Assembly: GCF_022832975.1 (NCBI RefSeq)
Contig: NZ_CP094846.1
Coordinates: 1,997,501 to 2,061,500, forward strand
Source: Ornithobacterium rhinotracheale
GTDB lineage: Bacteria > Bacteroidota > Bacteroidia > Flavobacteriales > Weeksellaceae
Direction: 5' to 3'
DNA length: 64,000 nt
Shown here: positions 9,380 through 11,528 of the stretch, piece after piece
Numbering within the stretch: position 1 is the first letter of the stretch
How the letters are laid out: every line of letters begins with the position of its first letter
Translations under genes and position numbers: made by a program
Notes under the pieces: generated by a model
Told to the model about the DNA's origin: nothing
The model's input: only the letters and a program-made list of their open reading frames with translations
The model's database searches: none

Positions 9380-9679
9380 TTATAGAGATTTTTTATTTAC
9401 TTCTGCCATACATAAATCTACTTCTTTAATCAGTCGATTTATTTTTAATTTCATCAATTTCTTATGTTCAGGGTTTCCTCCCAGAGCACTTGCTATTTTT
9501 AAATTCTCGTTTATATGTACTAACTCTTGATTTTTTGCCCACTCCTCATTCAGTTTCAATTTCAATTGCTCGTTTTGGCGAGACAATTCTGCGTTATCTT
9601 CCTGCAATTCCTTGTTTTTGCGTATCATAGCATAAATTGCATTTTCTAGCGCCGAGAAACTTTCTTTATACTTTTGCAT
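9380..9679 (-). CDS. small coiled-coil protein upstream of zapA
   Basis: A 99-residue, highly charged protein, predicted to be helical with heptad-like spacing of hydrophobic residues between about 10 and 65. It has no signal peptide or membrane segment. The gene ends two bases before zapA, so the products are made together. By position and coiled-coil character it may act with ZapA in division, as ZapB does in enterobacteria, but no sequence relation to ZapB can be claimed. Confidence 0.75.
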   Translation of the reverse strand: MQKYKESFSALENAIYAMIRKNKELQEDNAELSRQNEQLKLKLNEEWAKNQELVHINENLKIASALGGNPEHKKLMKLKINRLIKEVDLCMAEVNKKSL

Positions 9680-9837: not shown

Positions 9838-9845
9838 TATTTTTG
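9838..9845 (+). promoter_or_regulatory. -7 box of the glucan phosphorylase gene
   Basis: TATTTTTG matches TAnnTTTG, 24 bases before the ATG. The nearest upstream TTG (9805-9807) is 30 bases away, which is too far, so only the -7 half is supported. Confidence 0.45.
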
Positions 9846-9869: not shown

Positions 9870-11528
9870 ATGAATCAATTACCACAAGCATTTCGTGCGC
9901 CGTATGAATTTGATCCTAAATTCAAAAAATCCTCTGTATATTTCTGTATGGAATTCGGAATAGATCAAGCTTTAAAAATCTATTCTGGAGGTCTAGGTTT
10001 TTTGGCAGGATCTCACATGAGAAGTGCTTATGAGACTAAACAAAATTTAATCGGAATTGGAATTCTTTGGAAATACGGATATTACGACCAATTTAAAAAA
10101 GAAGATCGAAAAATGGGGGTTCTTTTCCAAGAAAAAATTTACCATTTTTTAAAAGATACTAATATCAAATTCACTATTAAAATTGCTGGACACGATGTGT
10201 GGGTAAAAGCTTTTTACCTAGAACCTGATGTGTTTGGCACAGCACCTCTTTTCCTTTTAAGTACAGATTTACCAGAGAATGATTATTTGGCAAAATCTAC
10301 TACTTTCAGACTTTACGATTCAGACCCTAAGGCTAAAATTGCCCAATGTATGGTACTAGGGCTTGGAGGGGCTAAATTATTGGAAGAATTGAACTACGAC
10401 CCAGAAGTGTATCACTTCAACGAAGCTCATGCGCTTTCTGCCGTGTTTAATTGGTTGCCAAGACTAGGTAAAGAAAAATTAAAAGAAAAATTAGTTTTCA
10501 CCACACACACACCAGAAGAAGCTGGAAACGAAAAACACAACATTTATGAACTTTATGAGATGGGATTCTTCAATGGATTACCTCTTGATAGAGTTCGTGA
10601 ACTTACAGGGGTAGAGGGAGATGAATTTAACCACTCACTAGTTGCGCTTCGCTTAACAAGAATCGCTAATGGTGTTTCTAAATTACACGGAGAGGTTTCA
10701 AGACACATGTGGGAAGGCTATGAAGGAGTATGCCCGATTACACATGTTACCAATGCACAAAACAAAAAATACTGGGCTGATAAACGATTGAACAAAGCAA
10801 AAGAAGATAACAACCTTGACGCTCTAATCAAACGAAAAAAAGAATTAAAAGCTTACTTATTTGAAGAAGTAGCGGATCAAAATGCTAAATTATTTGACCC
10901 TAATGTTTTAACCATCGTTTGGGCAAGACGCTTTGCAGAATATAAAAGAGCTGATTTAATTACTCGCGACATTGAAAAATTCAACGAGTTGATGAAAAAT
11001 ACTAAACAACCCGTTCAATTAATCATCGCAGGGAAACCTTACCCTATGGATTATAACGCAATTCGCCAATACGATGCGCTTGTAGAATTAAGCCACGGAT
11101 ACAAAAATATGGCGGTACTTGCAGGATATGAATTAAATCTTTCTAAAAAATTGAAAGACGGTGCAGATATCTGGCTAAATAACCCGCGTGTAACCCGTGA
11201 AGCATCTGGAACTAGTGGTATGACTGCGGCTATGAACGGAGCCATAAACCTATCTACCAACGATGGATGGATTCGTGAATTCAACGAAATGAATCCAGAG
11301 GCACTCTACACCCTCCCTATCATCGACTGGACATTGCCACACTTTGAACAAGATAAAATTGATAGAGAAAATCTTTACAAAATCTTGCAAAATGAAGTAT
11401 TACCGCTCTACTATGACAGACCAGAGGAATGGTACAAAAAAGTTCTTATAAGTATGAATACTGTAACCCCATTCTTTGACTCTGCTCGTATGGTCAGTGA
11501 GTATTACACTAATATTTACAATCTTTAA
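9870..11528 (+). CDS. alpha-glucan phosphorylase homologue (GT35-like, short type) with Thr in place of the PLP lysine
   Basis: A 552-residue member of the short alpha-glucan phosphorylase family, which normally releases glucose 1-phosphate from glycogen or maltodextrin using pyridoxal phosphate. An N-terminal glucan-binding region (SGGLGFLAG, residues 39-47), the NEAHAL motif near residue 185, TTHTPEEAGNE, and the C-terminal EASGTSGMT (444-452) support membership. In canonical phosphorylases the residue after this Met is the PLP-binding Lys (GNMK or SGMK); here it is Thr452 (codon ACT, 11223-11225). The protein may therefore lack the usual cofactor linkage and do different chemistry. It is a single-gene unit with its own terminator. 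The gene name glgP is withheld for this reason. Confidence 0.85.
   Translation: MNQLPQAFRAPYEFDPKFKKSSVYFCMEFGIDQALKIYSGGLGFLAGSHMRSAYETKQNLIGIGILWKYGYYDQFKKEDRKMGVLFQEKIYHFLKDTNIKFTIKIAGHDVWVKAFYLEPDVFGTAPLFLLSTDLPENDYLAKSTTFRLYDSDPKAKIAQCMVLGLGGAKLLEELNYDPEVYHFNEAHALSAVFNWLPRLGKEKLKEKLVFTTHTPEEAGNEKHNIYELYEMGFFNGLPLDRVRELTGVEGDEFNHSLVALRLTRIANGVSKLHGEVSRHMWEGYEGVCPITHVTNAQNKKYWADKRLNKAKEDNNLDALIKRKKELKAYLFEEVADQNAKLFDPNVLTIVWARRFAEYKRADLITRDIEKFNELMKNTKQPVQLIIAGKPYPMDYNAIRQYDALVELSHGYKNMAVLAGYELNLSKKLKDGADIWLNNPRVTREASGTSGMTAAMNGAINLSTNDGWIREFNEMNPEALYTLPIIDWTLPHFEQDKIDRENLYKILQNEVLPLYYDRPEEWYKKVLISMNTVTPFFDSARMVSEYYTNIYNL

Follow-up and report, generated by a model that had tools for sequence, protein, structure and literature searches.

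GT35 enzymes have been described as phosphorylases only, and GT35 as the one phosphorylase family that requires pyridoxal phosphate (PLP) (PMC4336185). The lysine that carries PLP is K646 in Escherichia coli MalP, and the cofactor has been proposed to have replaced a nucleotide in an ancestral proto-GT35 enzyme (PMC11046441). Retaining phosphorolysis outside PLP-dependent GT35 has a mechanistic precedent in the retaining trehalose phosphorylase of GT4 (EC 2.4.1.231), which differs in family and substrate (PMC4336185). No report of a PLP-free GT35 enzyme or of a characterized flavobacterial GlgP was found in the open-access literature searched.

A GT35 homolog with Thr at the PLP-lysine position

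The window analyzed here is a 64,000-nucleotide stretch of the Ornithobacterium rhinotracheale genome (NZ_CP094846.1, positions 1,997,501 to 2,061,500). The open reading frame at 9870-11528 on the forward strand encodes a 552-aa protein whose translation contains ...NNPRVTREASGTSGMTAAMNGA... and which scores above the curated cutoffs of both TIGR02094, "alpha-glucan family phosphorylase" (430.6 bits, cutoff 191.7), and PF00343 (69.5 bits, cutoff 27) in profile searches. At the level of homology, it is a GT35 protein. Its features are as follows, in window coordinates.

9870..11528, + strand: predicted GT35-derived alpha-glucan enzyme without the PLP lysine, 552 aa (TIGR02094, PF00343, AF2 model)
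9987..9998, + strand: GGLG loop, residues 40-43, invariant in Thr-type and Lys-type sequences
10506..10508, + strand: H213, equivalent of the phosphorylase catalytic-site His, invariant in Thr-type and Lys-type sequences
10752..10775, + strand: NAQNKKYW, N295-W302; N295 and W302 kept, Q297/N298/Y301 specific to the Thr clade
10926..10949, + strand: RRFAEYKR, R353-R360, phosphate-binding Arg/Lys loop; R354, Y358, K359, and R360 invariant, R353 in 109/110
11034..11045, + strand: KPYP, K389-P392; P390-Y391 specific to the Thr clade, A-H in Lys-type sequences
11127..11144, + strand: Y420-E421...S425; Tyr kept, E421 and S425 specific to the Thr clade
11199..11222, + strand: EASGTSGM motif, E444-M451, with E444 the catalytic Glu equivalent; E444-G450 invariant in 110/110 Thr-type and 19/19 Lys-type sequences
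11223..11225, + strand: Thr452 at the PLP-lysine position, codon ACT (translation and alignment; context "...ggt atg act gcg...")

In an alignment with canonical and solved phosphorylases, EASGTSGM-T of the query falls on EASGTGNM-K, which puts Thr452 on the PLP lysine, presumably K680 in the rabbit enzyme. The Schiff-base lysine of EASGTxxMK, by which PLP-dependent alpha-glucan phosphorylases of GT35 are recognized, is therefore replaced by Thr452, and the codon and the alignment confirm the substitution noted in a preliminary description of this DNA. Among 115 Bacteroidota relatives from at least eight families, position 452 is Thr in 112, Ser in 3, and Lys in none; it is Lys in all 38 other TIGR02094 proteins read from the same phylum. 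This bears out the clade-wide change that the preliminary description had suspected and supports its view that the enzyme might differ from classical phosphorylases. That an otherwise ordinary phosphorylase was hit by a local mutation or misread in sequencing can be set aside as next to impossible, since 112 of the 115 independent genes share Thr and the remaining three have Ser.

The AF2 model of the query (pLDDT 90, pTM 0.89) is least confident in active-site loops 211-220 and 441-450 (pLDDT about 66 for the latter). The fold is that of a phosphorylase (Z 35.6 and 31.8), and the best solved match is the glycogen phosphorylase of Segatella copri, 9L6I (Z 35.6, 2.1 Å over 533 residues). With 9L6I and TIGR02094 GT35 proteins, the query has in common this fold, EASGTSG, the RR...YKR loop, GGLG, and the catalytic His and Glu. 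It differs from them in having Thr (Thr or Ser across the clade) instead of the PLP Lys, in being 552 rather than 852 aa long, in lacking the N-terminal DUF3417 domain of the long TIGR02094 forms, and in a pocket containing Q297, Y301, W351, P390-Y391, E421, and S425. Starch synthase IV with ADP (6GNE) also matched the model, with a Z of 30.3 over 453 of 493 residues, which is level with most phosphorylases. GT5 enzymes such as GlgA and starch synthase IV share the GT-B fold with the query, use no PLP, and hold equivalents of the catalytic His, Arg, Lys, and Glu, but they carry EPCGLT where the query has the phosphorylase-type EASGT motif. The query scored 32.0 bits with TIGR02095 (GlgA), for which the cutoff for GT5 glycogen synthases is 328.45.

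Active-site residues and the pocket around Thr452

Residue conservation was compared in 110 Thr-type sequences, about 52 to 76% identical to the query, and 19 Lys-type sequences. The catalytic Glu and His and the Arg/Lys phosphate site are conserved in the query as E444, H213, R353/R354, K359, and N295, and N184/E185/H187, N267, T294-N295, K389, and W302 are also invariant or nearly so in the Thr-type sequences. Mean column identity was 73% in an alignment of 55 members. Because the other expected active-site residues are invariant, the Thr-type protein is predicted to be maintained under selection as an enzyme rather than to be the product of a decayed gene.

Several pocket positions distinguish the two types. 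Q297 is found in 110/110 Thr-type sequences (Val or Ile in Lys-type), N298 in 99/110 (His in Lys-type), and Y301 in 108/110 (Ser or Thr in Lys-type). Y391 occurs in 110/110 Thr-type sequences and His in 19/19 Lys-type sequences; E421 and S425, each in 110/110, stand against Asp or Asn and Ala or Gly, respectively, and G419 replaces Asn or Asp in 109/110. Sequence comparison revealed no lysine among the residues that changed with K452T in the pocket loops, the changes being to Q, N, Y, W, P, Y, E, and S. A second lysine at the PLP site, which the preliminary description had named as a finding that would speak against it, did not appear in this sequence comparison. Only one lysine, K429, has been gained close by in the chain, two helical turns past the loop of the pocket. 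Clade-specific substitutions were enriched in the cofactor loops against all sites (p 5.5e-4), an effect that conservation alone could cause, and no enrichment was seen when the comparison was limited to sites that both groups conserve (Fisher p 0.82).

Descent, distribution, and genome context

In a tree of 52 sequences, the Thr proteins formed one clade with support of 100/100, present in all bootstrap trees, on a stem of 1.49 changes per site. The Thr clade has a single origin. Its nearest relative in the tree (support 100/99) is a Lys-bearing protein of 574 aa, L121; both this protein and the outgroup are long branches, which calls for caution in reading the tree. Further short Lys-bearing GT35 proteins (L145-L149) bring this set, from families f43 and f53 and including L121, to a size range of 541 to 577 aa. 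They resemble the Thr clade in reduced length and in W67, K36, N220/E221/H223, and D304, but they keep K452 together with V297, H298, F351, A390-H391, and D421. Because the nearest sister is equally short and yet keeps Lys, shortening probably came before lysine loss, and because L121 has Lys-type residues at positions 297, 298, 351, 390, 391, and 421, the changes at these positions belong to the same stem as K452T. Among other Lys-type proteins, one with an N-terminal YHS domain (L123:734-2569) was seen in a genome, G148, that has several GT35 genes, one of them of the classical GlgP/MalP type.

When 395 genomes were scanned for the two DNA motifs, the Thr form turned up in 41 genomes from eight families and the Lys form in 216. 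Raw Thr-motif matches numbered 43, of which two (G178:C4 and G276:C48) were dropped as spurious because the sites do not encode the EASGTSG context; with these set aside, the two motifs occurred together in 0 of 395 genomes. In one family, f5, the Thr and Lys forms occur in separate genera. Phylogeny confounds the never-both pattern, which may reflect descent only, because there are few Lys-type genomes in the same class. The preliminary description had placed the Thr motif in Flavobacteriia, where it is indeed present, but the clade is wider, with members in Chitinophagaceae, Saprospiraceae, Cyclobacteriaceae, and others; named sources include Profundicola, Flammeovirga, Persicobacter, Spirosoma, Larkinella, Algoriphagus, and Emticicia. 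A Bacteroidota Thr-type gene with 61% identity to the query was also found on a contig labeled Williamsia (Actinobacteria; L063), probably through a binning error.

The query is the sole GT35 protein in its 2.42-Mb genome, which also contains a glgA-glgC pair (TIGR02095, 445 bits; TIGR02091, 452 bits) and a GH13 branching enzyme. The gene stands alone: on one side is a divergent cluster with genes for ZapA and RNase Y among its members, and downstream is cutC. Beside zapA, the window contains a 99-aa coiled-coil-like ORF (9380-9679, - strand) that matches nothing in Pfam and might encode a partner of ZapA. The sequence TATTTTTG (9838-9845, + strand), about 25 bases before the query start codon, is one that we take to match the Bacteroidota -7 promoter element TANNTTTG; there is no TTG at the usual -33 distance. 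In 108 loci, no glycogen gene was found as a conserved neighbor. Most often, in 47 loci, the neighbor was a lipoprotein-like gene upstream; genes for an NRAMP-like transporter and for isocitrate dehydrogenase were also among the commonest. The lipoprotein-like gene encodes 300 to 340 aa, lies just upstream and mostly on the same strand (e.g., L005:221-1174 and L054:6378-7403), and its L054 copy has no Pfam or NCBIfam match.

None of 33 Thr-form genomes contained a Lys-type GT35, and each contained an alpha-glucan synthase candidate. This was a GT5 synthase (with GlgC) or a GT3 synthase in 30 of the 33 and a GT4/5-like enzyme in the others (G076, G111, and G194). The gene adjoining that enzyme in G194 matches a glycogen-debranching enzyme (PF06202), and neighboring ORFs in G076 and probably G111 resemble this gene, the G194 copy being the one scanned. 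A GH13 branching enzyme is present in G111, and Thr genomes as a rule have a branching enzyme that belongs to either of two types. With a synthase candidate and a branching enzyme in place, what these genomes lack is a canonical phosphorylase. The idea that the Thr-type protein is a missing glycogen synthase was rejected, since the genomes without GT5 or GT3 hold the GT4/5-like enzyme. Related genomes (G021, G025, G130, G134, and G182) make glycogen without any GT35, which indicates that a phosphorylase is not obligatory and that its absence proves little. A conserved ORF of ~270 to 280 aa that corresponds to the N-terminal half only of GT5 glycogen synthase (e.g., G000:C1:76246-76944, outside the window) occurs in almost every Bacteroidota genome searched and has been described in a review as a conserved fragment of GlgA.

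Possible chemistries of the Thr-type enzymes

At the level of class, it is very probable that the Thr-type protein is an active alpha-glucan enzyme without covalent PLP that belongs to GT35 by descent. A reversible retaining phosphorolysis step that does not need covalent PLP is tentatively the most likely chemistry, and it is favored because the protein holds the place of a phosphorylase beside a synthase, because the phosphate-binding residues are kept, and because GT4 provides a precedent. We assign a probability of about 0.42 to the whole explanation, a Bacteroidota clade of short (~550-aa) GT-B enzymes that have lost the PLP anchor and carry out alpha-1,4-glucan phosphorolysis. The ancestor would have been an alpha-glucan phosphorylase that lost the covalent PLP anchor and otherwise kept its activity on alpha-1,4-glucan. 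The terminal glucosyl unit of the glucan would sit at a -1 site made by E444, H213, N295, and S446-G447, with R353/R354/K359 and the GGLG and GTSG loops holding the oxyanion. The arginines and the lysine might handle phosphate directly, as in the GT-B trehalose phosphorylase of GT4, or a small phosphate ligand might occupy the pocket. Glycogen phosphorylase is inactive as the apoenzyme without PLP, which counts against such PLP-free phosphorolysis.

The former PLP pocket could instead hold the nucleoside of ADP- or UDP-glucose, in which case glucans would be extended or primed and not broken; on balance, we consider this unlikely. Thr452 follows E444 by eight residues and occupies the position at which nucleotide-sugar GT-B enzymes have the second, ribose-contacting Glu of E-X7-E; the clade has Thr or Ser in place of this Glu, and GT5 enzymes also lack it. 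Y420 stands where a Tyr presumably packs against the base in bacterial glycogen synthase, and we take Y420 and the clade-specific G419 to resemble the base-binding GY of GlgA. The model match to starch synthase IV with ADP, TIGR02095 matches at 27 to 47 bits, and the proposed replacement of a nucleotide by PLP in proto-GT35 (PMC11046441) would fit nucleotide-sugar use as well. The GlgA similarity was nevertheless rejected as a sign of it, since Lys-bearing L121 is equally similar (40.9 bits) and the TIGR02095 scores are far under the cutoff, and a further synthase would be unneeded in genomes that already have GT5 or GT3 synthases or a GT4/5-like enzyme beside a debranching-enzyme gene.

Were PLP still bound, with no Schiff base but kept in place by the phosphate site and by walls formed by W302 and Y420, the enzyme would remain a PLP-dependent phosphorylase. 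R353, R354, K359, Y420, W302, and G447-S449 are all kept, and their equivalents presumably hold the PLP phosphate or flank the ring in muscle phosphorylase; moreover, reduced phosphorylase, which has no Schiff base, is active. The total, clade-wide change to Thr or Ser, with Q297, Y391, E421, and S425 arising on the same stem, looks more like adaptation to a different ligand, and loss of the anchor alone has no obvious benefit, so that we regard noncovalent PLP as distinctly improbable. Loss of the cofactor anchor and the lack of a conserved glycogen gene neighborhood would also suit a noncatalytic glucan-binding regulator, or a hydrolase or transglucosylase acting without phosphate. This too appears improbable, for 110 sequences, ranging down to about 52% identity to the query, share invariant catalytic and glucose-site residues for which a pure binding protein would have no need.

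The clade could represent a reversal of the proposed origin of glycogen phosphorylase, with PLP given up and its pocket now using a nucleotide sugar or working without any organic cofactor, a possibility that we regard as open to considerable doubt. If true, this would make the clade the first PLP-independent lineage of GT35. A GT35 clade without the PLP lysine, together with a Lys-bearing sister of the same size, makes the idea that PLP replaced a nucleotide directly testable. The name "alpha-glucan family phosphorylase" may be wrong for the many Bacteroidota genes that match this model, with consequences for inferences about glycogen breakdown in the phylum.
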